This document shows, piece by piece, positions 388 through 57,211 of a stretch of DNA of 57,211 nucleotides. A program made the translations under genes and the position numbers. This DNA is from a virus. The stretch's first letter is position 1. Each line of letters opens with the position of its first letter. The notes under the pieces are model-generated. The model saw only the letters and a program-made list of their open reading frames with translations, did not search any database and had not been told where the DNA came from. The stretch lies in the IMG/VR virus record IMGVR_UViG_3300040946_000076, positions 1 through 57,211 of that record; one strand, given 5' to 3'.

Positions 388-388
388 G

Positions 389-1810: not shown

Positions 1811-1813
1811 AAC

Positions 1814-2032: not shown

Positions 2033-2054
2033 AGTTCCCCATTTGTGATACAGT
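2026..2054 (+). promoter_or_regulatory. Candidate promoter of the HNH gene
   Basis: TTGCCA at 2026-2031 and TACAGT at 2049-2054 are separated by 17 bp, fitting a sigma70-type promoter. Transcription would begin only a few bases before the ATG at 2065, so the message would be nearly leaderless; no Shine-Dalgarno is visible. Supported by pattern only. Confidence 0.3.
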
Positions 2055-2064
2055 ATTGCTCGTT

Positions 2065-3319: not shown

Positions 3320-3582
3320 GAGTGAAGTACTGTAGCGACACGGCGACACATTTGCTTGCGATCTTTACTGTTGATTGCATTATCTATCGCGACCGAGATG
3401 CCCTCCATAATTTGATTTTTGCACTTAGCGACATTCTCCTCCGAAAGCATCTCGAAGATTGAATCGTTAATATCGCAGTCGACGGTCAACTGGCGACCTT
3501 CTAGGTGTAAAACTACCGCGATTTGGGGGCGAGGCGCCATATGAAGACGGCGGGTTATTGTTTCTGATACTTTCTCGCTCAT
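3316..3582 (-). CDS. Hypothetical protein (88 aa)
   Basis: Not recognised. A beta-type segment (PQIAVVLHLEGRQLTVDCDI) is followed by helices. It is coupled at both ends: its ATG overlaps the stop of the methyltransferase-like gene, and its stop overlaps the next ATG. Confidence 0.6.
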   Translation of the reverse strand: MSEKVSETITRRLHMAPRPQIAVVLHLEGRQLTVDCDINDSIFEMLSEENVAKCKNQIMEGISVAIDNAINSKDRKQMCRRVATVLHS

Positions 3583-4708: not shown

Positions 4709-4725
4709 ATCGTACAGTCCTCCAT

Positions 4726-5454: not shown

Positions 5455-5879
5455 TGCGCAGGAGCCTTTGAAGCTACGCGCTCAAGAATGCTTTCGAGCG
5501 CGTCTTTCTTCGCGGCGAGAGTCAAAGGAATCGGTCCACCGTCCGGGCCGGCGAACTCGCTCTTATCTTTGCCGCCGAGGCGTTGCTTGTCGAGCCAAAT
5601 GAGCATCGTAACGTTGCCGCGCATGGCGACCTGGTACTGCTTTCTGCGCAGACTGGCGTTGCATTCCTGGTGGCCTTTGTTTAAAGCTGTATTTAAGTTA
5701 GCGTCTTTGTAGAGACGATCACGTGTAAGTCCCAGAATCGAAGCTATTTCTTCTCCTGACATGCTCAGCTTCGCCAGTTCGAAGACTTGTCGCTCTTCAG
5801 GAACAACCGTAGGGTCAATCTTGTTCTTTCCCTTGCGCGGACGTCCGCCCTTGCTTCCGTCTCGCGGTTTGCCTCTCAT
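5451..5879 (-). CDS. terS: Terminase small subunit
   Basis: The 142-residue protein starts with a basic low-complexity arm (KGGRPRKGKNK). A helix-turn-helix follows (ELAKLSMSGEEIASILGLTRDRLY), then the segment ASLRRKQYQVAMRGNVTMLIWLDKQRLGGKD. That arrangement, in which new DNA-binding protein precedes a GNxxMLIWLxKQ-type motif, is common in small terminases that recognise the packaging site. The start at 5879 is chosen by overlap with the upstream stop. The ATPase half of TerL follows directly. Confidence 0.75.
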   Translation of the reverse strand: MRGKPRDGSKGGRPRKGKNKIDPTVVPEERQVFELAKLSMSGEEIASILGLTRDRLYKDANLNTALNKGHQECNASLRRKQYQVAMRGNVTMLIWLDKQRLGGKDKSEFAGPDGGPIPLTLAAKKDALESILERVASKAPAQ

Positions 5880-6388
5880 CGCGGATGCCTCGACACGATT
5901 CCTGCGGTGTTGATACCGATCACCGACGCTGCGCCAGCGACGCCGATGAACCTCGCAATCCAACGGTCGCTCGCATAGTGCAAGCCGGTCATGGCGGCCA
6001 GCGGAATGAAGGCATCAGCTTTCGACCACAGCGTAACTCTACGCTCATATGTCGCGATGCCAGTTCCCCAGGCGATGGCCTCAGTTCCGTAGAACCACGG
6101 GCTGGTAAACGTCTGCCGGTTTGTTCGATTCGGCCGCATGGTCCAGAACGTGACGCGGCTCTGTACCAGCTTCAACACGCGCCAGTTTGGAACCTGACTG
6201 CAAGGAATGTCTTGGTAAATCAACTTTCCTTGCTCATCCATCGAGACCGTCTGGCAGCGCGGTTGCGGATTCTCAATTACCTGGCACCTCGCTGCCTGGG
6301 CCAGAGTGAACAGCAAGACGAGCAACACACATAACGCCAGGCACAGCGTCACGATTGTCGCCCGCCTCAGTTGTTCGTCCGCGTTCAT
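5876..6388 (-). CDS. Membrane-anchored or secreted hypothetical protein (170 aa)
   Basis: The start at 6388 overlaps the previous stop (ATGA). Residues about 9-30 form one hydrophobic segment ending LFTLAQAARC, which could be a signal peptide or an anchor. Two Cys (RCQ, PRCQT) and a third (DIPC) follow soon after, suggesting an oxidising compartment. The C-terminal half has weak hydrophobic helices around AFIPLAAMTGL and FIGVAGAASVIG. No family recognised. Confidence 0.6.
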   Translation of the reverse strand: MNADEQLRRATIVTLCLALCVLLVLLFTLAQAARCQVIENPQPRCQTVSMDEQGKLIYQDIPCSQVPNWRVLKLVQSRVTFWTMRPNRTNRQTFTSPWFYGTEAIAWGTGIATYERRVTLWSKADAFIPLAAMTGLHYASDRWIARFIGVAGAASVIGINTAGIVSRHPR

Positions 6389-6702
6389 TGAGGAGTTGAG
6401 AAGTTTATTTTCACCGAGGTCAATACCTGCGGCTGCACATTCGTGATCGTCTCCGTGTCCGTCAGTGGACCGGTCGGGCCTTGAACTGTTGCCGTCAGGT
6501 TCGCAACGCCGGCAGCCAGCGAAGTCACGTCTTCGTCGGCAGGAGCCGCTGCGTCGGCCGAGATCGAATCGAGAGTTGGTTGGTCTAGGCTCCACGACGG
6601 GGCCGGAATCGGCCCGAGGAACGGTTGCCCGTTCTGATCGTATCCGTCCACGCTGGCGACGGTTTTCTGTCCTACTTGTAGAGTGATTGGTCCTTCTGCC
6701 AT
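6385..6702 (-). CDS. Ig-like (BIG2-type) domain protein (105 aa)
   Basis: The start at 6702 has GGAGG 9 nt upstream. The sequence ITLQVGQKTVASVDGYDQNG, then SWSLDQPT, then VTSLAAGVANLTATVQGPTG follows the bacterial Ig-like group 2 pattern. Such single domains are found on virion surfaces and may bind host glycans weakly. The frame is open back to an ATG at 6783; that longer form would begin with a natural run of nine His codons and has its own AAGGG site. The shorter start is preferred but not proven. Confidence 0.65.
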   Translation of the reverse strand: MAEGPITLQVGQKTVASVDGYDQNGQPFLGPIPAPSWSLDQPTLDSISADAAAPADEDVTSLAAGVANLTATVQGPTGPLTDTETITNVQPQVLTSVKINFSTPQ

Positions 6703-6775
6703 ATGGTGATGCCTCCAGAATGCGATTTTGATGCTTGCGAGATGGTGATGGTGGTGGTGGTGATGATGCCTGCGC

Positions 6776-7153
6776 TCATCCATTCATGCCCTTCGCCTGC
6801 AAATTTGCAGCCCGAGCCTTCTGGCAAGCAGCTAGGAACCCGGGATGGGGATTGTGCACCGTCACGCGAAGCGGTTCCGGATATGCGAGATCGAGAGATT
6901 CGTTCGGGCTGCAGAGTTCCGGCTTCGGAACGACCTTAATCGCTATGCAAGCTTGCGAGAACAAGAATCTGCGCTTCGTTTGAATCCAGGGCTCGTCTGT
7001 GTTCAGTTGGAGTTTGTTCGGGCCGAGCGCTACGGCAGCAGCGACGCCGTCTATCTTGAGAGCGAGCAGGAAGGGAATGAACTTGCGGGAGAGATAGTGG
7101 GCTGGTTTGTCTTCAGGAGATTGGTTCCGAGAAAAGAGAGCGGCTCGCGGCAT
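6776..7153 (-). CDS. Hypothetical protein (125 aa)
   Basis: Not recognised. There is a short hydrophobic stretch (FIPFLLALKIDGVAAAVALG) near residues 26-45 but no clear membrane span. No good ribosome binding site precedes the ATG at 7153, so the start is doubtful. The 3' end contains an exact CTGCAAATTTGCAG palindrome, read here as codons A-N-L-Q-A. Confidence 0.5.
   Translation of the reverse strand: MPRAALFSRNQSPEDKPAHYLSRKFIPFLLALKIDGVAAAVALGPNKLQLNTDEPWIQTKRRFLFSQACIAIKVVPKPELCSPNESLDLAYPEPLRVTVHNPHPGFLAACQKARAANLQAKGMNG
6797..6810. promoter_or_regulatory. Palindrome CTGCAAATTTGCAG, exact copy 1
   Basis: Perfect 14-bp palindrome inside the last codons of the 125-residue gene. In the minus-strand message it is followed directly by GCGAAGGG and the ATG at 6783, so it sits against a possible ribosome binding site. 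One of a family of nine dispersed copies. Confidence 0.7.
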
Positions 7154-7188
7154 GTTGTCGCGTCGAGGTTCGATCCTCAGAGAGGACG

Positions 7189-7229
7189 AGCAGGTTAAGC
7201 GCTTCGAGATACTTATAAGCTAACCTGCT
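7189..7229. other. Inverted repeat, 9-bp arms
   Basis: The arms AGCAGGTTA (7189-7197) and TAACCTGCT (7221-7229) are perfect complements around a 23-nt spacer. The element lies in the 121-bp gap between the genes ending at 7275 and starting at 7153. No T-run follows on either strand, so a simple intrinsic terminator is unlikely; a processing site or operator are alternatives. Confidence 0.45.
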
Positions 7230-7274
7230 GTGAAATGTAAAGCAGATTTTGAAACAGCTTGCGGGACAAGCCTT

Positions 7275-7454
7275 TCAGAGTCCGCGCTGGTGCGCCTGCA
7301 CGACAAGATTCTCAACGAGAGCACAGTTATGATTCGGGACCTTACGTTCTCGCCCCGTGTGCTTTTCCCAAATGTGCGCCAGCAGTTTCGCCAGCGAGTC
7401 GAACGTCTCTCCGCAGCCTCGACGGTTCCAGGTGATTCCGCAAACGAATACCAT
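7275..7454 (-). CDS. Small zinc-finger protein (59 aa)
   Basis: Begins MVFVCGITWNRRGCGETF and continues LAKLLAHIWEKHTG. The spacing Cys...Cys...His-x4-His fits a C2H2-type zinc finger. The start overlaps the stop of the membrane gene upstream (TGATG). Small proteins of this kind in phages may bind nucleic acid; the role here is unknown. Confidence 0.6.
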   Translation of the reverse strand: MVFVCGITWNRRGCGETFDSLAKLLAHIWEKHTGRERKVPNHNCALVENLVVQAHQRGL

Positions 7455-7609
7455 CAGTGCCTCCAGTGCCGCGTTCCAGCCCAGATCACAAATGCCCAGA
7501 ATCCGCCGCCGACTGCAAGCCATACGAGCGCCCAGAACATCGAGAGCGCGCAAGCCTTCCAGCTCACGTACATCCCGCACTGCCGCGTGTTGCGCCATTC
7601 GTTGCTCAT
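7454..7609 (-). CDS. Small membrane protein (51 aa)
   Basis: One clear membrane span (ALSMFWALVWLAVGGGFWAFVIW) makes up half the protein; the short N-terminus is polar. The start at 7609 overlaps the HNH stop as ATGA. It could be a holin-like or superinfection protein, but nothing in the context decides. Confidence 0.6.
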   Translation of the reverse strand: MSNEWRNTRQCGMYVSWKACALSMFWALVWLAVGGGFWAFVIWAGTRHWRH

Positions 7610-7911
7610 GGTTTCTTCTCCAAGTCCTTTTTTGAAGTCTCGGGCATCTGCTGGTGATGTTTGATTCGATGGCACTTGCCGCATAGTCCGTGACAAGCCC
7701 GGAAAGTGTCATCTCGCTTTGAACCACCAATGCCCCGGCCATCCGCATGATCCACATGGAAGGAATCATCCCACTCAATCGGATGCAGCAAGAACGTCCA
7801 CCGCCCGCACTGAAAGCACCGAGCCGACTGCAACTTGTAAAGCGCGAGACGGAACTCGGTGTAATCCTTGCCGGTTCTCTTGGTGCGCCCGTCTTTGGTA
7901 ACTTCAATCAT
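7606..7911 (-). CDS. HNH endonuclease (101 aa)
   Basis: Contains CFQCG, then DDSFHVDHADGRGIGGSKRDDTFRACHGLCGKCHRIKHH. That is an HNH core with HVDHADGR as the first strand and CHRIKHH as the metal-binding end. The start MIEVTKDGRTKRTG at 7911 overlaps the upstream methyltransferase gene by 8 nt. It lies right after two DNA methyltransferase genes, which would fit a modification/cleavage pair, though a homing nuclease is equally possible. Confidence 0.75.
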   Translation of the reverse strand: MIEVTKDGRTKRTGKDYTEFRLALYKLQSARCFQCGRWTFLLHPIEWDDSFHVDHADGRGIGGSKRDDTFRACHGLCGKCHRIKHHQQMPETSKKDLEKKP

Positions 7912-8539
7912 TGAAACTAAACTCTCGTTCGATTGGCGAGGCTGTGCTCGATGCTTCGGCACATTCTTCGTCAATATCAATGCCGATTACCTCGGCACCT
8001 TGATTCTCCGCAACAAATGGAATTGTGCCTCTGCCGCAAAATGGGTCGATAATCTTGTTCGTATATTGCAGGCAAAACTTGACAGCCACTTCGGCAGCGG
8101 CGATGCCGCAGCCCATTTCATAGAATGCGTGGCTTACGTCAATTACGTCTGGTGTGGATGTTCCGCTTGTTACCGTTCCCGATCCGAAGCAGAGCAGGTG
8201 ACGATAAGCGGGACGAAACAGATCGCACTTCCCAACTCCACGTCGCAATTCGATTTTATGCCACACAAGAAACCAGCCCATCTCTTCGGCAAGATTGCAA
8301 ATAAGCACCACCTTACTCAGCCACTTGCCGCTGCATTTCCGATCAGATTGCAAAAATATAACAGGACAATTCTCGCTGGCGGATAATAGACATTCGCGGG
8401 CCGCCCGCTGAATCCATGCTTTGTAATCTTGCAAGTTCAGCTTCAGTTCTGCCGCATCGGGAAGGCTTGTGATGATCGCACCCTGATTCCGATGAGCAGG
8501 CAGCCATTCCAGTGAGTTGGCGCAGATAATTGTTCTCAT
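7904..8539 (-). CDS. DNA methyltransferase-like protein with unusual TSLPD motif
   Basis: The SAM site near the C-terminus is IIDPFCGRGTIPFVAENQ followed by EVIGIDIDEECAE, as in DNA N4/N6 methyltransferases. The position of the catalytic (S/D/N)PP(Y/W) motif, early in the protein, instead reads IITSLPD (about residues 23-29). The order (catalytic first, SAM site last) is the beta-type permutation. Pro is kept but the aromatic is lost, so the target or activity may differ from classic enzymes. The start at 8539 overlaps the stop of the second methyltransferase (ATGA). Confidence 0.6.
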   Translation of the reverse strand: MRTIICANSLEWLPAHRNQGAIITSLPDAAELKLNLQDYKAWIQRAARECLLSASENCPVIFLQSDRKCSGKWLSKVVLICNLAEEMGWFLVWHKIELRRGVGKCDLFRPAYRHLLCFGSGTVTSGTSTPDVIDVSHAFYEMGCGIAAAEVAVKFCLQYTNKIIDPFCGRGTIPFVAENQGAEVIGIDIDEECAEASSTASPIEREFSFND

Positions 8540-45079: not shown

Positions 45080-45889
45080 TTACAGATACCCTCCGCCGCC
45101 GAACCCTCCGCCGCCTGTGCTGCGGATGGAGTCGTTCCAGTCCTTGTTCTTGAACTCCTCGACGAAGCCGTCGGCGAACTGCGTGTACAAGGAAGCCTTC
45201 TCGATCAGTTTCTCGTATTCCGCCTCAGCAATCTCATATTTCGACGTGTCGCCCTGGTTGACCTTGAACGCCCAGAAGTGCATCTCCAGCTTCTTGATCA
45301 GCGCAGGCTGCATCCAGTTCGGTAGCAGCGGCACGGTCTCGTCGGAATCATCCGAAGTGTAGTTCGGGACGGCCCAATAAGCGAGCGAGCAGGGATAGCT
45401 CTGGTCCGGGATCGGATCGACGATCAGCAGCATCGTCTCGCCGGGAATCAGGAAGAACCTCACTGGCGTTGCCGGAGGGTATTGATTTTGCAGCGCGAGG
45501 ATCTCGTCCTGAACGTCGGGATCGAAGACCGGCTCCGGCTTCGCGTACGGCACGTTGTTCCACGGCGAGGGAATCTGCGATGCTCCCGAGACGACGTTTC
45601 CGGGATAATAAATCTTGAAGCCGTTCTTCGCGATCTGCTGCACGTCCGTGAGGGCCTGCCCGGCCTGGTCCTGAATGCTGCTCAAGTTGTACTTCGACGT
45701 TCCGGCAGTCATCTGGAACGTTCCGATCCTGCGACGCCACCACCATCTCCGTTCTAGGCAAAGCTCTTGCAGCGCGGTGTAGAACTCGCTGTCCTGATCG
45801 AGAGTCTTCGCGCGCTGTTCCGTGCGCAGGTTCGCGACCTGGATCATCTGCTGCTTCGAGAATCCGCCGAAACCTTGGCCGCTAGCCAT
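45080..45889 (-). CDS. Head-tail adaptor / tail tubular A-like protein (269 aa)
   Basis: The helical start (GFSKQQMIQVANLRTEQRAK), a Trp-rich segment (LERRWWWRRRIGTFQMTAGT) and a beta region (VRFFLIPGETMLLIVDPIPD) resemble gp11/TTPA-type adaptors, which join portal and nozzle. A Gly-rich tail closes the protein. It overlaps the dehydrogenase stop by 8 nt and precedes the nozzle-like gene, matching T7-like order. Confidence 0.6.
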   Translation of the reverse strand: MASGQGFGGFSKQQMIQVANLRTEQRAKTLDQDSEFYTALQELCLERRWWWRRRIGTFQMTAGTSKYNLSSIQDQAGQALTDVQQIAKNGFKIYYPGNVVSGASQIPSPWNNVPYAKPEPVFDPDVQDEILALQNQYPPATPVRFFLIPGETMLLIVDPIPDQSYPCSLAYWAVPNYTSDDSDETVPLLPNWMQPALIKKLEMHFWAFKVNQGDTSKYEIAEAEYEKLIEKASLYTQFADGFVEEFKNKDWNDSIRSTGGGGFGGGGYL

Positions 45890-47156
45890 TCACCACCGCC
45901 TCTTCCCGAACGGTTTCCCGAGCCGATCCTATGCTTCTGAGAATGACTCCGACCTGCGGCTCGATGTAACGAAACGGATCGATCACGACGGAACCGGGAG
46001 GGAAATTTATGTGCTTGTAGCGCTCGTGCTGCGTTCCGATGAAGTAGATTCCCGGATGCCGAGGGATGTAATTATCGAAGCATCCGTGCGCGATGCCGCG
46101 GCGCTTCAGGATCGACGAGAGCAGCAGAGCTGGGCTTCCGGTCTCGATGTTCGTCTCCGGCTTGAACGCGCGCCCGAGGATCACGACCGGGAGATGACGG
46201 CCTTCGCGGTCGAGTTGATCTTCGACTTCCGCCGAGATCAGATCGGCGAGCCACTCACAGTGTTTCTCCCGTGCCGTCATCAGAGCAGTGAAGAAGTCAA
46301 ACGAAAGATTATGCTGGCGGGCGACCCATGAGAGCGCGATATTGTCGCGAGGATGACAACCTCCACCGTCACCCATGCCCGCCTTCAGGTACAGCGGTGA
46401 GATCAGCCGTCCCGTCGCCGAAGTCAATGCCTTGTAGATGTGCTCGACGTTCATGCCGAGCCGCTCCGCCATCTCGCCGTAGAGGTTCGCCAGCACGGTC
46501 TTCGTCGTGATGAACGTGTTGTAGAGAACCTTGATGCCTTCCGCCGTCTTCAGGTCGGTGACGAACAGCTTGTTCGTCACGCCCATCGACTCGTAAAACT
46601 TCGTGATGACTTCCAATGCGTAAGCATCGTGAACTCCGACGAGCACGAGGTCGGGATTGAGGAAATCGTGATACACCGTTCCCATCGCGATGAACTGCGG
46701 CGTGTAGACGAGCCGGAACCGCGACTTCAGCAACGGCAGGACTTCCCGCTCCAGCGTCCCCGGAAGCACGGTGCTGATGATGGCGCACGTCTTCGCCGTC
46801 GTTCCGTTCAGAGCCAGGTCGACGGCCTTGACGCAATCGACGAGGTATTTGTAGTCGAAATCGGCGCGGTCTTCGGGTAGCGGCGTGGCGCCCTCGAACT
46901 TCGGCTGGTGCGGAGTTTGCGGGGCGAGGAACAGAAGGTCAGCCCAGCGGCAAAGCACGTTCAGCGGAACCATCTCCATCTGCGTCTTCGCCAGAAGCTC
47001 CGACGAATGTTCTTCCTCGAACGGAATCTCACGGTTCTTGAGGTACCCCGCGATCTTCGGATCGATGTCGTAACCCTTGACTTCGTGGCCTTTGCTCTCC
47101 GTGGCAAGAGCGACCATAAGTCCCAACTTTCCACATCCCACGAAACCTACGCGCAT
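45882..47156 (-). CDS. Nucleotide-sugar 6-dehydrogenase (UDP-glucose/GDP-mannose type)
   Basis: The 424-residue protein has the NAD-binding start VGFVGCGKLGLMVALATESK and the strand VKGYDID. The central domain includes AEGIKVLYNTFITTKTVLAN. The catalytic Cys lies at C267 in AGMGDGGGCHPRDN, the GxGxGGxCxPKD site with His and Arg replacing the usual Phe and Lys. A C-terminal NDP-binding domain follows (VVILGRAFKPETNIETGSPA). It oxidises a nucleotide sugar to a uronic acid, or a related product given the changed active site. It lies in a cassette with a glycosyltransferase, a methyltransferase and a radical SAM enzyme. GGAGGG precedes the ATG. Confidence 0.85.
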   Translation of the reverse strand: MRVGFVGCGKLGLMVALATESKGHEVKGYDIDPKIAGYLKNREIPFEEEHSSELLAKTQMEMVPLNVLCRWADLLFLAPQTPHQPKFEGATPLPEDRADFDYKYLVDCVKAVDLALNGTTAKTCAIISTVLPGTLEREVLPLLKSRFRLVYTPQFIAMGTVYHDFLNPDLVLVGVHDAYALEVITKFYESMGVTNKLFVTDLKTAEGIKVLYNTFITTKTVLANLYGEMAERLGMNVEHIYKALTSATGRLISPLYLKAGMGDGGGCHPRDNIALSWVARQHNLSFDFFTALMTAREKHCEWLADLISAEVEDQLDREGRHLPVVILGRAFKPETNIETGSPALLLSSILKRRGIAHGCFDNYIPRHPGIYFIGTQHERYKHINFPPGSVVIDPFRYIEPQVGVILRSIGSARETVREEAVVNG

Positions 47157-47166
47157 TCGCCCTCCT

Positions 47167-48531
47167 TCACGCCATCACCATCGAACGATCTCTGTGCTGA
47201 ATTTCCGTGTCGATCACGCGAGCGATCTCTCCGAAGCGCCGCACTAAATCCGCTTTTCCTATCGTCGGCAGATCAAGATAGACAGACTCTTCCGTCACTT
47301 CGTCTCCGGTCTGCCAGAACTTCTCGAAAGCGTTCGGCGGCAGAGTCACTCCATAGCGCTCAGGATGAATCCAAACGTCCGATCCTGGATACGGCTGGAA
47401 CAAGTTCCAACTAACCGCGTCCGGACGCGCATTAAGCATCCATGCCTCCAGTTCGTCGAGCGACTCCAGCGTCTCACCCGGAAATCCAGCCATGAGATAA
47501 GCCTTCGCGATCATGCCCGCGTCCTGGCACATCTTGACGCCTTCCGTGTTCTTCTCCGGCGTCGTGCCCTTGTCCATCGCCTTCAGCATCCGGGCCGAAC
47601 CATGCTCGACGCCGAACCCCATCTCGACGCATCCCTTGCTGGCGAGATATTCGAACAAGCTGCGGTCAGTCAAGTTCACGCGAGTGTTGCCCCGGAACCA
47701 GATGCCGTAGTCCGCTAGGATGTCGGCGATCCTGCGGCAGCGGTCCGCTTTGATCGTGAACACGTCGTCGTAGATGCGAAGGCAAGAAACTCCGAGAGAT
47801 GCCAGTTGTTTTGCCTGCTTCTCGATCTGCTCGAAACTTTCTTCCCTGATCTTCGTCCGCGCGTCGGCGCAGAACCTGCATCCGTAAGGACACCCGCGGG
47901 CCGAGAACAACTGCGCCGTCATCCCCTGTCCGCCTTGCCCGTCGTAATCCTTCGTCGTGAACCTTCCGCGATAGAATGGCGTCGGCCACAGATCGAACGC
48001 AGGACCGGGCAGAGCATTCACGTCAGGAAGCGGCGAGCAAGGGTTTTGCTGAAGCATCCCGAGCGCGTTGAACCAGCACAGGTTCGGAGTCCCGGAAACG
48101 TCGCCTCGGTCCCAGCGGCCGCAGAACTCCGCGAAGGAATGCTCCGACTCGTTCACCATCAGGAAGTCGAATCCGTCGAAGTAGCTTGCCCGCTTGAACT
48201 GCTGATGTGGTCCGTTGACGATGTAGGACGCGTGAGATCCGCCGAGAACTTTCACTTTCGCGGGCCACGCCTTCGCCAACTGCTTTCCCCAATGCACGTT
48301 TGCCGTCGTCGCGGAGACGCCGAGAACGTCGCACGGCTCCAGCATCTCGTGGTGGATGATGAGTTCTTTCTTCTCTCGGTTCCAGCTCGTGATCTGGTGG
48401 CAGTCGAGCACGCGAACGTCGTGGCCTGCTTCGCGCAACGAACCGGCCAAATAGAGCGCCCCGAGGTGGAGGAAGCTGAGCGGGTTGAAAAGCAGCCAGC
48501 TGGGGGAGTCGAGCAGGCAGACCTTAGCCAC
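47167..48531 (-). CDS. B12-binding-type radical SAM enzyme (454 aa)
   Basis: Residues 1-150 form a B12-binding-like Rossmann domain (LSFLHLGALYLAGSLREAGH, VRVLDC, DVLGVSATT, VKVLGGSHAS), but the DxHxxG cobalamin motif is not obvious. The radical SAM core has the 4Fe-4S motif C214-x3-C218-x2-C221 in ARGCPYGCRFC, with the strand features LRIYDDVFTIKADRC and KAYLMAGFPGET. Such enzymes methylate or rearrange unreactive carbon centres in sugars, lipids or peptides. It starts with GTG overlapping the methyltransferase stop (TAGTG). Its partners suggest glycan chemistry. Confidence 0.85.
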   Translation of the reverse strand: MAKVCLLDSPSWLLFNPLSFLHLGALYLAGSLREAGHDVRVLDCHQITSWNREKKELIIHHEMLEPCDVLGVSATTANVHWGKQLAKAWPAKVKVLGGSHASYIVNGPHQQFKRASYFDGFDFLMVNESEHSFAEFCGRWDRGDVSGTPNLCWFNALGMLQQNPCSPLPDVNALPGPAFDLWPTPFYRGRFTTKDYDGQGGQGMTAQLFSARGCPYGCRFCADARTKIREESFEQIEKQAKQLASLGVSCLRIYDDVFTIKADRCRRIADILADYGIWFRGNTRVNLTDRSLFEYLASKGCVEMGFGVEHGSARMLKAMDKGTTPEKNTEGVKMCQDAGMIAKAYLMAGFPGETLESLDELEAWMLNARPDAVSWNLFQPYPGSDVWIHPERYGVTLPPNAFEKFWQTGDEVTEESVYLDLPTIGKADLVRRFGEIARVIDTEIQHRDRSMVMA

Positions 48532-48704
48532 TAGACAGGCTCCAGAATAGCCGTGGCATAGCGTCCGTCCAGCGTGATGTAATTGAACTCTTTCACTGTC
48601 AGTAAATCTTTAACTCGGTATTCCAGTTTCTCGCGGCTGTACCAGTCCGCGTACTCTCCGACATCATCCATCTGCGCGACGAATTGCCTGAAGGCAGGAT
48701 GTGT
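48531..48704 (-). other. C-terminal continuation of the methyltransferase after an in-frame TAA
   Basis: The frame of the methyltransferase at 48705-49241 continues past its TAA (48707-48705) for 57 more codons to TAG at 48531. It reads PAFRQFVAQMDDVGEYADWY, then SREKLEYRVKDLLTVKEFNY and ATAILEPV. This is the kind of C-terminus that follows the SAM domain in related methyltransferases. An internal ATG at 48671 could start a 46-residue fragment. See the findings for alternatives. Confidence 0.6.
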
Positions 48705-49241
48705 TTAGACATCGTCCTCGATAGGCGGAACTCTGGTTGCTGTCGTAAGAATCCATGCCCGGTCAGAATAGAGCAACAATCTGACTTCTCCTCCTGGATT
48801 TAAGTTGGCGACTTCTTTCTCTAGAAGTTCTCGCATCTGCGGCGAGTGATGAAGTACCCCATTGGAATAGAACACATCCACCGGACCATCAGGGGCAGGT
48901 GTGTAACCAGAGAGCCTAAGCACTCGTTCTGCCGCCTGCACGTTAGAAGGGAAAATATCGGACAAGAGGACTTCGTTCCCGCTCTTGGCAAATTGCAGAG
49001 CTTCGATCCCGAATCCACATCCGAAGTCTTTCACGCGCTTACCATGTGTGCTGTCTAGCCCCAGAGTTGAGCGCCAGAGATTATTGAAGTTTCGCCAACT
49101 CTGATATCTATGCGTCTCAAATGTTCGGATAAAGTGCAGCACGACACCGTCCGGCCAAGTCAGGAAGTCTTCGCTATTCACATACCCGATGCCATCGGCG
49201 GGGATGAAATTCCAAGGGAGCCGTTGTTCTAGGACTGACAT
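48705..49241 (-). CDS. SAM-dependent methyltransferase, interrupted by in-frame stop
   Basis: The 178-residue product has motif I KDFGCGFGIEALQFAKSGN (residues 71-89), the acidic strand VLLSDIF, and VFYSNGVLHHSPQM as motif IV. It belongs to the broad class I family that methylates small molecules or sugars. It ends TRVPPIEDDV at a TAA, and the same frame continues with convincing C-terminal sequence to 48531. It starts next to the glycosyltransferase stop and is probably part of the same modification pathway. Confidence 0.72.
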   Translation of the reverse strand: MSVLEQRLPWNFIPADGIGYVNSEDFLTWPDGVVLHFIRTFETHRYQSWRNFNNLWRSTLGLDSTHGKRVKDFGCGFGIEALQFAKSGNEVLLSDIFPSNVQAAERVLRLSGYTPAPDGPVDVFYSNGVLHHSPQMRELLEKEVANLNPGGEVRLLLYSDRAWILTTATRVPPIEDDV

Positions 49242-50954
49242 TTATCCAACCAGTGCGATTCTCTTCGCCTCAATCGCCTGCCGTAATTTCTGAACGTCCT
49301 CGGCACGGCGCGGGGCGAGAGACTTGTACAGCTCCTCGACTTTGTCCCGGTCGTGCCGAGCAAGGCGTTCTTTGTGCGTCTCGTCCCAATCGGCTTTGCC
49401 CCATAGCGGGTGCATGTGTTCCGTGAGGAACGGCAGGTAGACTCGACGCCCAAGCTCGTTCGCGACCTCGTTCAGCCATGTGTCGTTGAAGTCGGAAGAG
49501 AAATACGGCGGGAAGAAATAGCCCACCGCTTCCACCCACTGGCGGTGAAGGAATGGATGCGTGCCGAACTTCTCTTTCCAATAGCCATCGTTGCCATGAA
49601 CGAGAATCAGCTTATCAGCGTGGTTCTCGAAGCACTTCGCGACGATCTCGTCCCACCCGTTCGTCCTGAAGATCAGGTCATCTCCTCCAGCCATCAGAAT
49701 CTCGCCCGACGCCACCTTCACGCAATCATTCCAGCATTCAGAGAGCGTCTTCCTTGGACCGCGAACGAACTTCACGTTCTCCGGACTGTCGGCGTACAGC
49801 GCCTGATAGGAGTTGTCATCCTCGTCTATGTACAGCACGACTTCCGGCAGGCGGAAAGACGTTGCCTTCAGGGATTCAAGCAGGCGGGCGACGTTTCCGA
49901 GACGGTTGCGCGTGGGGAACAGGATGCTGATCTTCGCCGTGTATTTTGCTTCCCGCATCGCTGCCTGATGAGTGCCTTCCGCGCTGCGCTTGTCCCGCTC
50001 CAGCAGAACGTCGCGGTAGTCATAGAAGTCCGCGAGAGAGTATGCGTAGTCACCGACGTGGCCGGGTGTGACCGTCGTGTCGACGAACACCGGAATGCCC
50101 AGCTCGATGCATTTGAAGCAGAAGGAAATATCCTCTCCGAACTCTCCTCGGCCTTGTGGTTGCTTCAGGAACTCGAACCACCAGAAGTCGTTCGTCTTCC
50201 GCGCTTCACCCTGCCTGCGGGTCTGGAGTTTGTCGAGAGCTTCACCTGAAAAGCCGTAATACTTCTGCTCGTACTTGCAGTTGATGTAATACTCGCCAAC
50301 GCGGGTCATCGCTTCCCGCGAAAGCAGGATCACGCCAGTGCCGCCGCCAAACTCTTTCCCGCCAACCAAACCTTCCCGGTCCCATTCCATGCAAGTGAAG
50401 AAAACCTGCTCGTCCGGATCATAGACGCGGAAATTCGGTACCGGAGGGTCGACGCGAACAGTACAGGCGGCCGCCACCACGTCTTTCTTGTGGGCCAGCA
50501 ACTTGATCAGCGTGTCGGGTTGTGGAACCATGTCGTCGTCCATGAACAGAATGTAATCCCACGGCTTCCCTGTCTTGATCAGACTGCTGACGGCATAGTT
50601 CCTTGTCCAGTGAACGATGGACTGCTGAATCGTAGGCTCCATGTACAACTGGCAATGCCCTTGACTGGCCGCGATCATCTGCTGCAGAGCAGCCCAGCAT
50701 TGCGGAGCCGGACGCTTGTAGGAAGGCATCAGCAGAGCAACGATGGGAAGTTTCTGCTGCGGCGAAAGATCGTGGTTTACGAACGTCGCATCGCGCAAGC
50801 CGGTGACCCTGCGGAAAGCCTCTTGGCCTTCGGCAGTGTTGAACATCTTCTCCAGTTTCTTCTGGTGATGAAGCACGTCGAGAGGGTTCAAGTCCTTGAC
50901 GCGCTTCAACTCAGCGCTGACGAGGTCGGCGAAATGGTCGGACTTCTGAGTCAT
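49242..50954 (-). CDS. Two-domain GT-A glycosyltransferase (570 aa)
   Basis: The first GT-A domain starts LPIVALLMPSYKRPAPQCWA (about residue 69) and has the metal motif ILFMDDDMVPQPDT (D139-D141). A second GT-2-like domain starts KISILFPTRNRLGNVARLLE (about 341), has EVVLYIDEDDNSY and EILMAGGDDLIFR as its acidic motifs, and ends in an acceptor-side region with LTEHMHPLWGKADWD. The product could add two sugars in turn. The start MTQKSDHFADLVSAELK at 50954 overlaps the upstream stop (ATGA). Confidence 0.8.
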   Translation of the reverse strand: MTQKSDHFADLVSAELKRVKDLNPLDVLHHQKKLEKMFNTAEGQEAFRRVTGLRDATFVNHDLSPQQKLPIVALLMPSYKRPAPQCWAALQQMIAASQGHCQLYMEPTIQQSIVHWTRNYAVSSLIKTGKPWDYILFMDDDMVPQPDTLIKLLAHKKDVVAAACTVRVDPPVPNFRVYDPDEQVFFTCMEWDREGLVGGKEFGGGTGVILLSREAMTRVGEYYINCKYEQKYYGFSGEALDKLQTRRQGEARKTNDFWWFEFLKQPQGRGEFGEDISFCFKCIELGIPVFVDTTVTPGHVGDYAYSLADFYDYRDVLLERDKRSAEGTHQAAMREAKYTAKISILFPTRNRLGNVARLLESLKATSFRLPEVVLYIDEDDNSYQALYADSPENVKFVRGPRKTLSECWNDCVKVASGEILMAGGDDLIFRTNGWDEIVAKCFENHADKLILVHGNDGYWKEKFGTHPFLHRQWVEAVGYFFPPYFSSDFNDTWLNEVANELGRRVYLPFLTEHMHPLWGKADWDETHKERLARHDRDKVEELYKSLAPRRAEDVQKLRQAIEAKRIALVG

Positions 50955-51361
50955 TCCTGGTGCTGGTACTGCTCGTTCAGTTTCGCCCGCTCGATCTGCG
51001 GGATCAAATGCTCGCGCACGAAGTTTTCTGTCGCCCTGATCTCCTCGGGCGAGAGCGGTTCGGTCCTGCGGTTCTTGCGTTTCGCGATCATCCACTCGTC
51101 GTCGGACTTCCCGTTGTTGTTCAGCCCGTCGAGCGTGTCCTGCACGAGTTCGTCCTTCGCCCGGGCGACTCCGTTCGAGTCTTTGGGATAGTAGCGGTCA
51201 GGCTCGACCTCGTAGCTGTCCCAAAGACGCCGGTCGGAAGGATCGCGGAAACGCTCGTGCTGCGGGTCGCAATGCTCGCAGGATTCCTTCAGCACGTCGG
51301 CGCGGGCGTCGAGCACAGTCACCGTGCGCCGAGCTTCCGCGCCGCATCCCCGGCAGATCAT
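50951..51361 (-). CDS. Small zinc-binding protein (136 aa)
   Basis: The N-terminal site CRGCGAEARRTV then CEHCDPQH forms a four-Cys/His zinc ribbon. The rest is charged and helical (EWMIAKRKNRRTEPLSPEEI). It lies between capsid and glycosyltransferase genes; role unknown. Confidence 0.6.
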   Translation of the reverse strand: MICRGCGAEARRTVTVLDARADVLKESCEHCDPQHERFRDPSDRRLWDSYEVEPDRYYPKDSNGVARAKDELVQDTLDGLNNNGKSDDEWMIAKRKNRRTEPLSPEEIRATENFVREHLIPQIERAKLNEQYQHQE

Positions 51362-51880
51362 CTACGTCCTCGCCGCCTGCTTCTGCGTCCTCTGTTGCGT
51401 TTCGGCCAGCAGAGCGTTCTGCTCCGTGATCTTGCGGTCGAGCGCTTCGAGTTCCGCGCGCTTCCTCGCGGCCTGCTGGTCGGGCGTGAAGTAGGTTTTC
51501 ATCCACTGCTCCTCGCCTTCTTTCCCCCAGACGATGTCGCGGTCGCCCTTCATCTCCAGAAGCAGTTGAATCTCCGGATCGCTCGTCGTCACCTTCTGCA
51601 TCATGAAGATGACCTTCAGCGTCGGAGAGATCGCCTTCTCGCCCGTCCCCCGGTTGATGACGATGTCCGTTCCGGCGCGCAGGATGACCATCGGAGACCA
51701 TCCGCGTCGGTCGATCAGGTTCGCCAGGTGAGATCCGCCGAGATGGTAATAGGTTTTCTCCTCGACGCGGTGATGGCCTGGAAGGCGCGTGCATTTCGCC
51801 CAGTCCTTCGACTCGTCGTACGCGACGGCTTCCTTGCATACTTCACATTTCGCTTTGTACTCTTCCGGTGCCGTGTGCAT
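51362..51880 (-). CDS. Hypothetical protein with N-terminal Cys motif (172 aa)
   Basis: The start at 51880 (MHTAPEEYKAKCEVCKEAVA) has AAGGAG upstream. One CxxC pair plus a Cys at WAKCTRLPGHH suggest zinc binding. A beta-rich middle is followed by a coiled coil (RKRAELEALDRKITEQNALL). It follows the major capsid gene, a usual place for head-completion or decoration proteins. Confidence 0.55.
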   Translation of the reverse strand: MHTAPEEYKAKCEVCKEAVAYDESKDWAKCTRLPGHHRVEEKTYYHLGGSHLANLIDRRGWSPMVILRAGTDIVINRGTGEKAISPTLKVIFMMQKVTTSDPEIQLLLEMKGDRDIVWGKEGEEQWMKTYFTPDQQAARKRAELEALDRKITEQNALLAETQQRTQKQAART

Positions 51881-51942
51881 GTTCTCTCCTTGAAAACTCC
51901 GTGGGCACCCTTCCCCCCGAAAAGCGCCCACGGTCTCAGGTT

Positions 51943-53193
51943 TTACGAGAACGCCTGCAAATTTGTAAAACGGGCGTGTCTCGCAGGGTGCCTACAACGC
52001 CAACCCGCGATCGTCAGCACGAGATCGTAGATGATCTTCGGGTTCGTCGTGTTGTAGTTCGTGATCAGGTGCGTGTCGTTGTTGAACCCGTTCTCGGACA
52101 GCGGGCAGAACTCGATCGACGGAAGATCGATGCCCAGAGCCTCGAACGAGTAGTTCGTCGACGCGCCGAAATCTCCGAAGTTGAAGTTGTTCGCCAGGAG
52201 CCACGTGCCGTTCGACGTGATGAACTTCTTCAGCGAGACGCCGAAGAGGTCGATGTCCGGTTTCACCAACTGCTTGTTCGCGGCCCAGTAGTCAAGAGCG
52301 GTCTTGAACAGCGGAGACGCGATCAGCAGCTTCTGCGGCGAGCCGTAACGGAACGTGAACTCGTTCGCGGTCAGGAACGAGAGATAGGTCGCCGTCGTGC
52401 CCATGTCGGTGACGAACGGCGAGATGATCGAGCGGATGCCCATCGAGGTCAGCCTCGTCGACGTGCCGCTGACGCTCGAAGAGGCAACGCCGAAGATTCC
52501 GGCATCCTCCAGTTCCAGCTTCGCGCGGCGCATGGCGAGCATTTGCAGTCTTGCCCGCTCGTTCCTGTCGTAGTACTGACGGGTCGAGGCCGCTTGCAGC
52601 GTGATCTGGATCGGCGTTTCAAACGTCTGCGCGTAGCTCGTCTTCAGGTTGAGGTACGGAGAGCGAGGCGTCTGGATGGCCGATCCTTCCTGCGCCGCCG
52701 TGGCCACGATGCGGATCGCTTGCGTTGCTCCCACGGATCCTGGAGTCGTGCCGGCGAAGCCGCGCGTGACGGTGATCGTTCCGGCGACCGCGCCCAACTG
52801 GTACGAAACCGTCGAAGGCGTTCCACCGCCGATCGTGACCGTGGTGATCAGAGCGAGTTCCTCGATGCCGGTCCCTACCGTCGTCAAGCCGAAGGTGGGA
52901 ATCTGCACCACGTCGTTCACTCCGAAGATCGTCACGTCCTGCACCGGGATGTTCGTCGCGGCGGAAGAGAGGTTCGTCGTGCCGTTCGATACGGTCCCGA
53001 GCATTGGCAAATCCTGATCCTCGGGCCATTCAATCGTCGGGTTGTAGACGGACTTCTTCCGCTTCATGTTGTTCGTCAAGACGTAGAGCGGCGTTCGGTC
53101 AGGCTCCAGCAGGAGCATGTCGACGCTCACGTCGCGGACCGAAGAACCTTCGGTCGCGTAGTCGGCGAATGTTCTTATGTTTTGTTCAGCCAA
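51943..53193 (-). CDS. Major capsid protein, SU10-type (DUF5309)
   Basis: The 416-residue protein has the layout of SU10-like major head proteins: RTFADYATEGSSVRDVSVDM, a helix-linked KRKKSVYNPTIEWPED, then QTFETPIQITLQAASTRQYY and ELEDAGIFGVASS. Beta-rich segments with Gly/Thr follow, then AALDYWAANKQLVKPDI-like helices and a conserved late region. It follows the scaffold-like gene, as in other phages of this kind. HK97-fold assembly is expected (family knowledge). Confidence 0.8.
   Translation of the reverse strand: MAEQNIRTFADYATEGSSVRDVSVDMLLLEPDRTPLYVLTNNMKRKKSVYNPTIEWPEDQDLPMLGTVSNGTTNLSSAATNIPVQDVTIFGVNDVVQIPTFGLTTVGTGIEELALITTVTIGGGTPSTVSYQLGAVAGTITVTRGFAGTTPGSVGATQAIRIVATAAQEGSAIQTPRSPYLNLKTSYAQTFETPIQITLQAASTRQYYDRNERARLQMLAMRRAKLELEDAGIFGVASSSVSGTSTRLTSMGIRSIISPFVTDMGTTATYLSFLTANEFTFRYGSPQKLLIASPLFKTALDYWAANKQLVKPDIDLFGVSLKKFITSNGTWLLANNFNFGDFGASTNYSFEALGIDLPSIEFCPLSENGFNNDTHLITNYNTTNPKIIYDLVLTIAGWRCRHPARHARFTNLQAFS
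51955..51968. promoter_or_regulatory. Palindrome variant CTGCAAATTTGTAA (two mismatches)
   Basis: In the last codons of the major capsid gene (minus strand T-N-L-Q-A). The Q-L-N-A codon reading is the same as in copies 1 and 2, so the position near a stop codon repeats. Confidence 0.4.
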
Positions 53194-53222
53194 GGTTTGT
53201 GCCCTCCGCCGCCTTCAGTCCT

Positions 53223-54587
53223 TCACATCCCCTTCGGCAAGATGCGGCCTGACTCGTTCTGGTCCAGGATCGCTTGTCGCAATGCCGATCCCACCGCGTC
53301 TTCCTGAGCGGGCTGTTCGAACTGGCGGCTCGTTGCACCGGCCCCCAACGCGCGCCCCGCGGCGCGCCTCTGCTGCTGCGTTTGTTCCTGACGGCGCCCT
53401 GCCTGCACGGCCTGCGTCACCGCTCGCGGAGTCACTTTCTGTCCGCTCGCCACCCGCGCGACCAAGGCGTATCCGCGCAAAGCGTTCTGATCCGCAGGGA
53501 GAGGGTTCCCGTAGGCGTCGCGGAAAGTCATCGACCCGAGTTCGTCTTTCCCGAGCCCAAGCTGCCGCTCCGCCTTGTAGACCAGCGCCCTGAACTCGGG
53601 CGTCCCGTAGGCTGGAAGGTTCTCGTACACCTGCCTTCCCTGCTGGTCTTGCCTTCCCCGGACTTGCGCCCACGCTTGCGCGCAGGTCCGCATCGACTGA
53701 GCTTCCTGAAACGCTCCGAGCATTCCGGGAGCGACCGTTTCGATCGCCTGCTGAATGATCTCGGGCGAGCGAAGCAGCGTCAACGTCAGATCAGTTCCAT
53801 AGCGCGCCAGCGTCTGACCGATCTTCTCCGAGCTTCGCGCCAAGGCCACGTGCTGCTGAATCTCCGCCCGCGTTTGCGGAGGAAGATTCGGGTCTTCGAG
53901 CCTTCGCGTCAAGTCTCCGATGAACTTGTCGTCCGTTTTCACGCCCATAGCGTTCAGCAATCCGTTGCCCATTTCCTTCAACGTACTCTGGTCGTACTGC
54001 TGAACGAGTCTGTCGACTCCCGCGTAATACTCCTGCCGGGGATCGACTTGTGGAGCAGGCTCGGCTTCCGCTGCGGCTTCTTCTTCCGGAAGTTGCTGTT
54101 CTTCTCCCGTTCCGAAGAAGCCCTCGTCCGCCTCGGCCTGCCGCTGTTGCGCGATCAGGATGTCGCTGTTGAGCTTGTCTTGGAGCAGCCGCTTCAGGCT
54201 CTTGTCGCCTTGAATCTGCTCCCAGTTGTAGCCTCGGCGCCTCGCGTACTCCGCCAACTGATCGTCGGGAAACTCCTTCTTCTGTTCTGTGGTCAGCAGC
54301 CAGTCGTCGTCCGTTTCCTCCAACGCAGGTAGCTCTTCCGCCTGTGCTCCGGCTTCCGCTTCTGCGGGTTGTTCTTCGACCTCAGCCTCGGCTCCTGCTT
54401 CCGCCTGTGGTTCGGCTTCCGCGCCCGTGGGTTCCGGTTTCTGTTCGGGCTGGAGAGAAGGCAAGGTCTCGGGTTCAACGCCGAGAAACGATGAGAATTC
54501 TTGCGGGACAGAGGGTGTGGTTCCGCTCTGCGCTGCGCCGTCAGACGGTGTGGTTCCGCTCGGCGCGGCTTGTGATTCCGTGATCAT
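53223..54587 (-). CDS. Scaffold-like protein (454 aa)
   Basis: Long acidic, Glu/Ala/Pro-rich N-terminal part (residues 1-120: AEAEVEEQPAEAEAGAQAEE). A helical middle follows (EYARRRGYNWEQIQGDKSLK) and a Gln/Arg-rich end (QAGRRQEQTQQQRRAAGRAL). Position before the major capsid protein and composition fit a scaffolding protein, which guides capsid assembly and then leaves. Confidence 0.65.
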   Translation of the reverse strand: MITESQAAPSGTTPSDGAAQSGTTPSVPQEFSSFLGVEPETLPSLQPEQKPEPTGAEAEPQAEAGAEAEVEEQPAEAEAGAQAEELPALEETDDDWLLTTEQKKEFPDDQLAEYARRRGYNWEQIQGDKSLKRLLQDKLNSDILIAQQRQAEADEGFFGTGEEQQLPEEEAAAEAEPAPQVDPRQEYYAGVDRLVQQYDQSTLKEMGNGLLNAMGVKTDDKFIGDLTRRLEDPNLPPQTRAEIQQHVALARSSEKIGQTLARYGTDLTLTLLRSPEIIQQAIETVAPGMLGAFQEAQSMRTCAQAWAQVRGRQDQQGRQVYENLPAYGTPEFRALVYKAERQLGLGKDELGSMTFRDAYGNPLPADQNALRGYALVARVASGQKVTPRAVTQAVQAGRRQEQTQQQRRAAGRALGAGATSRQFEQPAQEDAVGSALRQAILDQNESGRILPKGM

Positions 54588-54632
54588 AAAGGCTCCTCAA
54601 TCGGCCGGTGTGGTTCCGGCAGAAACTCTGGT

Positions 54633-54953
54633 TTACTGCTCGGCTGCGCCGTACTCAGCGCTTTCGCCCTGCTCGGCGTTCTCCTTCTTACCCGCCTTCG
54701 GGCCAGGAGACTCAAATTTCGCCCCCTGCTCGCTGTTCTTCGAGGCTCCGTGGTGAGCCTTCAGGACGGCGGTGACGTGGCGCCCCGCTTCCTCGTGGGT
54801 CTTGTGCGAATAATGTTCGATGCGGTCGTCCTGCAGCCACGGTCCTGCGTTTTTCCCCCGTCCGCTCGACATCTTTTTGTGAACGTGCGTGACCGCGCCG
54901 CCGTTCTCCGTCGGCTCGACCCTGATGTGTTCCAATTCACCCTTTTTGATCAT
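54633..54953 (-). CDS. Small charged protein (106 aa)
   Basis: Lys/Glu/His-rich (HIRVEPTENGGAVTHVHKKM, ETHEEAGRHVTAVLKAHH-like) with a Glu/Ala/Gly tail (ENAEQGESAEYGAAEQ). Not recognised. Between portal and scaffold, where small head proteins or structural adaptors are often found. Confidence 0.55.
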   Translation of the reverse strand: MIKKGELEHIRVEPTENGGAVTHVHKKMSSGRGKNAGPWLQDDRIEHYSHKTHEEAGRHVTAVLKAHHGASKNSEQGAKFESPGPKAGKKENAEQGESAEYGAAEQ

Positions 54954-54966
54954 CGAGAAGCCTCCT

Positions 54967-55197
54967 TCAATTTGTTGCTGCCCATCTTTCCAACTCTTTC
55001 CAGAACTCGCGGTACACTTCCGCCTTCGAGGCGTAGTCCGAAGCGATTTCCAGGCTGCGCGGGACCGTGCGCATGTAGTCGGCCGTCTGCTTCTCGCAGT
55101 ACGCTGCCTTCGCGTTCAAGAATTCCTCGACCGATTCCCTCAGGTCGTTATCCCGAGCGAGCCAGTTCGACAGCACGAGCCTCTGGTTGTCCGTCAT
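54967..55197 (-). CDS. Small helical protein (76 aa)
   Basis: Helical (TDNQRLVLSNWLARDNDLRE, SKAEVYREFWKELERWAATN). The start overlaps the portal stop (ATGA), implying coupled translation with portal. Not recognised. Confidence 0.6.
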   Translation of the reverse strand: MTDNQRLVLSNWLARDNDLRESVEEFLNAKAAYCEKQTADYMRTVPRSLEIASDYASKAEVYREFWKELERWAATN

Positions 55198-57211
55198 CCG
55201 GCCGTGCTCTCCGCTATTCCTACGGGCGTCTTGTTCCCGTTCTGCGGCTGTGATGCCGCTGAAGGCGAAAGCAGGTTGTCCGCATGATTAGCCGCTTCGC
55301 TAACCCTACCCACGAGGTTCAACTGGCTTTGATCTTCCAGCCCAGGCATCTCGGGAGCGCCGAGGTACTTCGTCAGCATGTACTGCTGAATCTCGGGCTC
55401 CATCTTGTCGAGCGGGATCGAGATCGAAGCCGTCACGTTGTACTTCTGCGGCTGAGGCGGAGCCGAAGGATCAGGAGGTGGCAGGAAGTACGACTCCGGC
55501 TCGCCGTCGAGGTTCGGAATCGTCTTCAGCAAGTTCATCATCACTTTCTGAGGATCGAGAATCCCCGGCGCCTGCATCGCGATCTGACCGAGCTGCGCGG
55601 CCGCCTGACGCTTCAGGTCGTCGTTCACCGCCATGTACGAACCGGCGTCCGGCTCAACGTCGAAGTCCTGCTGTATCTCGTTCGGGTCGAGCTTCACGCT
55701 GCTGATCTTCCCGGTCTGATCTGTCATGATCCAGGGAACCTGCTGGGCTTTGTCCTGAGTCTTCAGCAGCGATTGCAGCGGAGAAGTGAAATACTTGGAC
55801 TCCACGCTCCACGGCTGGTCGAGGTCAGCCATCTGCTGATTCATCCAGATTTTCTTCATGCCAAGCTGACGAAGATACAGGTTCCGACCGTCCATCTTCA
55901 TCGCCAGCAGCACGTCCGCAGCCTTCGCTGCCAGAACCGCAGTTGTCGCCGTTTTACCGGCCTGCGGGTTCGCTTCCGTTCCTTCCGTCGTCAGGTTCAA
56001 CGACGGCTCGAACATCCCGATCAACTGCATCAGCAGCGCACCGCGCTCCATCGCTCCGGGCGGCAGAGGCGGACGCTCCACGAACTTGCAGCCGTTCAAG
56101 TCCGACGTTCTGAGCACGTTGAAGAACCCGCTCAACAGGCGGTCGGTGTCGAACTCGACTCCAGTCTTTGCGAGGAACGTTACGCGGATCAGGTTCGTGA
56201 TGTAGTCGAAGTTCTGCGCCATCTGCAGGTTGAACATCGAGAACATGTAGCGCAGCAGGCGGGGAGTGGAATCCCCGATCGCGTCGATCAGGTCAGGCAG
56301 CGGAACTTCGTCGGTGAACGACGTGTGCCCGTAGAAGTTTACCGGGTACGGCATCTTCCCCAGCACCTTATCGCGGTAGTTCTCGTTCACCCAGGTGATC
56401 CACATCCGTCCGTCATCGTCCTGCTTGTGCTCTTCGAGGATGTCGTACAGCTTCCGCACGCGTAGGTTCCGCGGGAACTGATACATCACCTGATCCTGCT
56501 TCCCGACGGCGGTACGGAACAAATCTTTCAACTCCTGGAACTCGCCCTTGACGACGACCGGCTCAGGATCAAGACGCATCAGATTCGCAACCGCTTCGGG
56601 ATCGAACGCCGGCGTATCTTCGCCCGTCTCCGGGTCTTTGTACTTTAGCCCGAGCATCTTCTTCAGCCAGAGGTCGGACTCGCGGTAGCTGTGAATCGCG
56701 AACGAAGATTGAAACAGGGTCTTGGCGAACGGCTCCCAGAACACGTCTCCGGGGAAGCAGCACATCACGCGCGGGCCTTCGTACTTCTTGATCTCTTCGG
56801 GGACCGTCAACTCCGTCCCGCTCTTGCCCATGAACTCCTGCACTTCCTCGTCCGTCATGTTCGCGCTGTGCTCTTCGACGGCCTGCTGAATCTCGGCGTC
56901 GGGAGCTTTCCGGGCGCGCATCATCGAGGCTCGGTCGCGGTAGACGACTTTGCCTTCTTTCAGGATCGCCTTCCTGAACACCATCGTGCGCGAGATGAAG
57001 TCCCAGTAGATTTTCGAGATGCCGATGCCGAGCGCTTCCGCGGCCATCCTGACCCGCTGATCTTCGGGCTGCTCCTGCGAGTTGTCGTACTGCTTCGAGA
57101 GCAACGCACTCAGTCTGGCGCCAACACTCGGATCTTGGCCTCCGCTCACGCGCAGCGTGTAAGGCTGCGCGGAAAGTCGCGCCACGTTCTTGCGGTAGAT
57201 CAGGTTCGCCA
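55194..57211 (-). CDS. Portal protein, main part (continues at 1-387)
   Basis: Residues downstream of the contig junction, completing a portal of 742 residues. Features include an early basic-helical segment (QEQPEDQRVRMAAEALGIGI), a stem/wing-like middle, and an acidic, Gln/Asn-rich C-terminus (ANHADNLLSPSAASQPQNG). The large size matches portal proteins of SU10-like and N4-like podovirus relatives. It follows the terminase nuclease gene and precedes head genes. The single-base difference in the terminal overlap changes residue Asp to Glu. Confidence 0.82.
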   Translation of the reverse strand, partial: ANLIYRKNVARLSAQPYTLRVSGGQDPSVGARLSALLSKQYDNSQEQPEDQRVRMAAEALGIGISKIYWDFISRTMVFRKAILKEGKVVYRDRASMMRARKAPDAEIQQAVEEHSANMTDEEVQEFMGKSGTELTVPEEIKKYEGPRVMCCFPGDVFWEPFAKTLFQSSFAIHSYRESDLWLKKMLGLKYKDPETGEDTPAFDPEAVANLMRLDPEPVVVKGEFQELKDLFRTAVGKQDQVMYQFPRNLRVRKLYDILEEHKQDDDGRMWITWVNENYRDKVLGKMPYPVNFYGHTSFTDEVPLPDLIDAIGDSTPRLLRYMFSMFNLQMAQNFDYITNLIRVTFLAKTGVEFDTDRLLSGFFNVLRTSDLNGCKFVERPPLPPGAMERGALLMQLIGMFEPSLNLTTEGTEANPQAGKTATTAVLAAKAADVLLAMKMDGRNLYLRQLGMKKIWMNQQMADLDQPWSVESKYFTSPLQSLLKTQDKAQQVPWIMTDQTGKISSVKLDPNEIQQDFDVEPDAGSYMAVNDDLKRQAAAQLGQIAMQAPGILDPQKVMMNLLKTIPNLDGEPESYFLPPPDPSAPPQPQKYNVTASISIPLDKMEPEIQQYMLTKYLGAPEMPGLEDQSQLNLVGRVSEAANHADNLLSPSAASQPQNGNKTPVGIAESTAG
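57036..57211. repeat. Right copy of 176-bp terminal overlap
   Basis: Second copy of the contig-end overlap; see 1-176. It lies inside the portal gene. Because the repeat interrupts a single gene that is intact after joining, a closed circle (circularly permuted packaging or assembly through a concatemer) is more likely than a real short terminal repeat at this place. Confidence 0.93.

Follow-up and report, generated by a model that had tools for sequence, protein, structure and literature searches.

Sugar-modification genes as likely accessory cargo behind a core capsid-linked glycosyltransferase in SU10-like phages

Phage cassettes with radical SAM, glycosyltransferase and UDP-sugar dehydrogenase genes, as well as the glycosylation of virions, are already known (PMC7029224; PMC11600133 in excerpt). 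According to the excerpt of PMC11600133 that cites Freeman 2023, glycosyltransferases together with an O-methyltransferase modify the capsid and tail tube of mycobacteriophages. Pelagimyophages carry host-recognition clusters whose variable cassettes hold radical SAM enzymes, glycosyltransferases and UDP-glucose 6-dehydrogenase (PMC7029224). The locus described here resembles the mycobacteriophage systems in its phage-encoded glycosyltransferases and methyltransferase (PMC11600133, same excerpt), a likeness of gene kinds rather than of compared sequences, but it adds a dehydrogenase and a radical SAM enzyme. It has the same gene kinds as the pelagimyophage clusters, and HTVC008M encodes relatives of its dehydrogenase (34%) and of its C-terminal glycosyltransferase domain (34%), whereas those clusters lie in the tail-fibre context of large myophages. 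What sets this locus apart is a lineage-wide glycosyltransferase beside the capsid gene, a slot for cargo genes and a distinct radical SAM subfamily.

The window, by which we mean the whole stretch analysed, is a viral record 57,211 bases long in which genes were called from an open reading frame listing and Pfam. On the minus strand, in order of transcription, lie an SU10-type portal gene (55194-57185), a gene for a 454-aa protein, an SU10-type major capsid protein (MCP) gene (51943-53193), two small genes that are kept in relatives (50951-51931; 51362-51931 on the MCP side and 50951-51361, encoding CxxC pairs, on the other), and then a two-domain GT-A glycosyltransferase (GT, 49242-50954), a methyltransferase (MT, 48705-49241), a radical SAM enzyme (rSAM, 47167-48531), a UDP-sugar C6 dehydrogenase (UGD, 45882-47156) and an SU10-type adaptor gene (45080-45889). 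The Pfam profile matches of this block are far above chance level. The four gene kinds, their coordinates and their place between capsid and adaptor genes are thus as given in a preliminary description of this DNA. Its view that overlapping starts and stops make the cassette one translational unit holds in part: the GT start overlaps the stop of the preceding gene (ATGA), the GT stop directly abuts the MT start (TAAATG), the TAG closing the full MT frame overlaps the rSAM start (TAGTG), and UGD overlaps the adaptor gene by 8 nt. However, MT as sequenced terminates about 174 nt upstream of the rSAM start, and rSAM and UGD are separated by 10 nt, which contain AGGAGG.

Searches of the cassette block returned neither RNA families nor minus-strand terminator-like sites, and the PADLOC matches on the window were generic domain matches. 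L130, another contig from this phage, is 99.4-99.95% identical to window positions 1-6158 and 51551-57211 and spans the ends of the window, which have about 176 bp in common; judged from these sequences, the window appears to be a whole genome that was assembled as a circle and has a short repeat at its ends.

A scan of viral sequences for the two-domain GT yielded 19 loci, which have in common, as far as their contigs reach, the portal, MCP, small genes, the N-terminal GT domain (GT_N), the adaptor and downstream genes. To avoid the bias of a GT-based scan, we also scanned with the capsid protein. GT_N is present in 30 of the 31 MCP loci that extend at least 1.5 kb beyond MCP, the exception, L166, being a weak 31% match. 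In the 24 MCP loci with both borders visible, the distance from GT_N to the adaptor is either 70-132 nt (empty, eight loci) or 746-7291 nt (filled, 16 loci). Most filled slots hold sugar genes, called by Pfam in L135, L147, L154, L156, L158 and L161 and by like sequence in L151, L152 and L162; besides genes of the kinds seen in the window, the cargo includes a GT-B-like glycosyltransferase, NAD-dependent epimerase/GDP-mannose dehydratase-like enzymes and methyltransferases, while L139 and L141 encode a very large protein at this position. Hence, GT_N is a core gene, and a cargo slot lies between it and the adaptor gene; in the window this slot is occupied by the C-terminal GT domain (GT_C), the broken MT, rSAM and UGD. 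The nearest relatives by MCP (L115, L116, L118 and L119; 80-83%) are without GT_C, rSAM and UGD as far as they were read. Since GT_C continues the core GT_N in one reading frame and is missing, along with rSAM and UGD, from these closest relatives, the four-gene set is best described as a core domain plus accessory cargo.

Some of these loci have peculiarities of their own. The slot gene of L139 (11546-15094) encodes a 1183-aa protein with collagen repeats, likely a fibre. The GT_N gene of L138 (12197-14236) and the adaptor gene of L143 (12332-14146) each seem to be split by an insert of about 1.1-1.2 kb, possibly an intron or intein.

The two GT domains differ in kind. GT_N (50016-50954) gives a weak Anp1-like match, and its DDD 139-141, ED 274-275 and H299 are kept across 24 sequences; the best hit of a profile search against the PDB, a procollagen galactosyltransferase, reached only E 0.17 and was disregarded. 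GT_C (49242-50015), fused in frame to GT_N in the window, belongs to the GT2 type, scoring 51 bits against PF00535 (Glycos_transf_2; cut-off 23.3) and carrying a DxD-type motif. The Asp pair of its GDD and the E-H-x-H of its EHMH are kept across 21 sequences. A structure model of GT had low confidence (pLDDT 57) and yielded no fold evidence. In L003 the GT (6275-8008) keeps GT_N (43-44%) and has a far more divergent C-terminal GT2 domain (25%), a pattern of sequence identities that suggests domain swapping behind the core GT_N.

UGD, preceded by AGGAGG, matches PF03721 and PF00984 above their cut-offs and keeps the catalytic Cys, Lys, Asn and Asp when aligned with 3vtf, as expected of the UDP-glucose/GDP-mannose dehydrogenase family; its 174 bits on TIGR03026 fall just below the curated cut-off of 189.8. 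Its GGGCHPRD active site had been called altered, but viral UGDs normally have GG[G/A/S]CHPRD at this point: over 80 UGD-bearing viral loci the counts were 38 for GGGCHPRD, 28 for GGACHPRD and 13 for GGSCHPRD. We therefore rejected the idea that the motif marks a defect.

MT has class I SAM methyltransferase character (PF08241/08242; motif I, DFGCGFG) but is not full length, as an in-frame TAA at 48705-48707 ends it after 178 of about 236 codons and removes the last 57-58 residues. The remnant frame past the stop (48534-48704) runs for 57 codons and keeps its homology to an intact MT in L004 (P0001), which aligns ungapped through the stop with 67% identity before it and 61% over the 57 codons after it; the differences are in third-position excess on both sides. 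Because the frame is conserved about equally before and after the stop, the break appears to be either recent or a sequence error. L130 ends before the cassette, and an exact 24-mer search found no second copy of the MT region. Stop codon reassignment was rejected, since TAA, TAG and TGA all terminate other genes in the window. By the usual layout of the family, the truncated product would lack the C-terminal part of the fold and is probably inactive. L002, L003 and L032 are without MT, and in L002 and L003 no such gene lies between GT and UGD, which indicates that MT is dispensable. The cassette as sequenced is consequently not the complete set for making a modified sugar that it had been taken for. 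A check for missing catalytic residues leaves the motifs of rSAM, UGD and GT in place and only MT truncated.

The rSAM protein combines a B12-binding-fold domain (PF02310, 1e-8) with a radical SAM domain (PF04055, 4e-21) whose CPYGCRFC motif supplies C214, C218 and C221, invariant in the rSAM alignment. An AF2 model built from 19 sequences (pLDDT 82) also matches the radical SAM superfamily. Its best fold match is AprD4 (6fd2; Z 28.1, rmsd 3.2, 398 aligned, 21% identity), tied with the B12-dependent protein glutamine methylase MgmA (Z 27.2, rmsd 3.2, 363 aligned), both at about 20% identity, and AprD4 likewise tops the profile search at 1.2e-19. No curated NCBIfam cut-off is reached, with 55 bits against the 500 required for AprD4 (NF033070) and 96 against the 600 required for PhpK (TIGR04479). 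The nearest curated families by score are PhpK, ApyD and BchE, none of which acts on sugars to our knowledge. As for the earlier label of a B12-type enzyme, it fits the fold (PF02310, five strands) but not a claim about the cofactor, since AprD4, the nearest structure, is a dehydratase of the radical SAM kind and is not known to use B12.

The N-terminal domain of rSAM has five strands and a hairpin, a fold that AprD4 also matches along its entire length. Class 1 cobalamin enzymes have five strands and a hairpin in this domain (PMC13331322). The class B radical SAM enzymes MgmA, CysS, TsrM and TokK share with rSAM the succession of five-stranded B12-type domain, hairpin and radical SAM domain, but rSAM falls short of every curated family cut-off, and B12-type refers here to fold only. 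Within class B, GenK and GenD1 act on aminosugars. AprD4, the best profile match and joint best fold match, also acts on such a substrate, dehydrating an aminosugar (PMC5461906). It differs in the spacing of its cluster cysteines in the alignment and in its need for a partner reductase, AprD3, which is not seen here.

The rSAM family occurs in about 22 phage loci, 20 of them found by direct viral scan at 50-81% identity and L147 via the capsid scan; because the viral scans rely on short peptide patterns, some members are missed. Every one of these loci adjoins glycan genes, in several gene orders, a plain locus count with no background rate. The neighbours include GT, UGD, MT, RGP-like (PF03214), nucleotidyltransferase, GDP-mannose dehydratase/epimerase and C-methyltransferase genes. 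A search for the same four-gene set in other phages thus gave rSAM with glycan genes in varying order rather than a constant quartet, with MT absent in L002 and L003. In other phage groups rSAM lies away from SU10-type capsid genes, still beside sugar genes, and the groups of the rSAM tree largely match these different contexts. Most members of one phage group (L006, L011-L016 and L018-L021) have the RGP-like protein next to rSAM.

Two genome-contig scans returned no cellular member, which is weak evidence of absence given their short peptide patterns. Matches in the plasmid and phage collections are at about 27% identity or below; the best plasmid match is 26%, and the phage collection held no match to the subfamily above 26%. 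We provisionally regard the subfamily as phage-only from these sequence comparisons. A fragment of a host O-antigen cluster, named earlier as a result that would count against the cassette, was rejected, as the rSAM relatives lie in phage contigs among phage genes and the genome-contig scans were empty.

In four slot phages dN of rSAM is 0.13-0.17, with synonymous sites saturated (4-fold identity 0.30-0.40), and dN of MCP reaches 0.74 in the same phages. These values point to strong purifying selection on rSAM. Recent transfer as the source of the high rSAM identity was rejected because the synonymous sites are saturated. The rSAM tree joins the window with L002 (96/91), whereas MCP joins L002 with L004 at 90%; by this disagreement, cargo has been exchanged between phages.

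In two rSAM homologues, in L009 (8648-9688) and L020 (6948-8000), an intein (PF14890) sits directly in front of the first CxxxCxxC cysteine; inteins favour insertion in active sites. A second long open reading frame in another frame inside the intein (8889-9638 in L009, 7123-7908 in L020) weakly matches a Vsr-like endonuclease, an arrangement that resembles a homing endonuclease gene overlapping the intein in a different frame.

With moderate confidence, we read the cassette as accessory glycan-tailoring cargo that feeds the core capsid-linked glycosyltransferase of an SU10-like phage lineage. The sugar-modification role proposed in the preliminary description gains support from the gene content, the association of rSAM with glycan genes in all of the about 22 loci, and purifying selection. 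GT_N would probably place a first sugar onto the acceptor, and the cargo behind it would elaborate that glycan. UGD would oxidise an NDP-hexose to an NDP-uronic acid, rSAM would make a radical change to the sugar, such as C-methylation, or deoxygenation as in AprD4, GT_C would transfer the modified sugar, and MT, broken in this sequence, would cap it; both the sugar as substrate and the order of steps we infer. If the cassette is such cargo, the acceptor is somewhat more probably a virion protein than the host surface. Modification of a virion protein is plausible because 30 of 31 relatives have the core GT next to the capsid gene and because mycobacteriophages provide a precedent. A more specific proposal, which we offer only tentatively, is that the core GT attaches the radical-modified sugar of a phage-only rSAM subfamily to the phage's own capsid or tail, with the slot serving as a site at which glycans are switched between phages.

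It is possible, if rather doubtful, that the cassette instead remodels host surface polysaccharide late in the infection, for superinfection exclusion or for release from receptor-bearing debris. GT, UGD and rSAM genes in the host-recognition clusters of pelagimyophages are usually interpreted in this way (PMC7029224), and relatives of GT_C and UGD occur in many phages outside a capsid-gene context; throughout the lineage, however, the core GT_N keeps its place next to the capsid gene, in a structural operon, and no membrane GT, flippase or polymerase is seen in the cassette. We consider it very improbable that the targets of the GTs are phage DNA bases instead of proteins or surface glycans. 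DNA-hypermodifying phage GTs exist (Pyle 2024, as cited in an excerpt of PMC12619734) and GT_C weakly matches phrog_2675, labelled DNA methyltransferase, but the early genes scanned show a DNA methyltransferase only and no base-hypermodification genes.

The tie between MgmA and AprD4 in structure, together with ApyD and other peptide-modifying families among the better rSAM profile matches, would suit an enzyme that introduces a C-methyl group or a comparable change into a protein of the capsid, adaptor or tail, the sugar genes being separate cargo. We give this little credence, because rSAM accompanies sugar genes in other phage groups and gene orders away from SU10-type capsid genes, and because most phages sharing the window's capsid gene type lack it. 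Equally improbable is that the cassette is decaying cargo, with the MT break as a sign that the entire set no longer functions in this phage. The premature TAA, the lost stop/start coupling to rSAM, the GC content of MT (50.8% versus 58-59% in its neighbours, as for a late arrival) and the lack of MT in L002, L003 and L032 would all fit, but the frames of GT, rSAM and UGD are open and retain every motif, L002 and L003 do without MT, and the similar conservation of the frame past the stop argues for a recent break or a sequence error.

Glycan genes are common in phages, and their targets are rarely known. As the rSAM subfamily reaches no curated cut-off and no cellular member was found here, it may catalyse a new kind of reaction on phage sugars. 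Moreover, a fixed glycosyltransferase beside the capsid gene, followed by a slot that is empty in some phages and holds differing sets of sugar genes in others, amounts to a set of natural variants, similar virions with and without cargo, in which the target of the glycan genes is testable.
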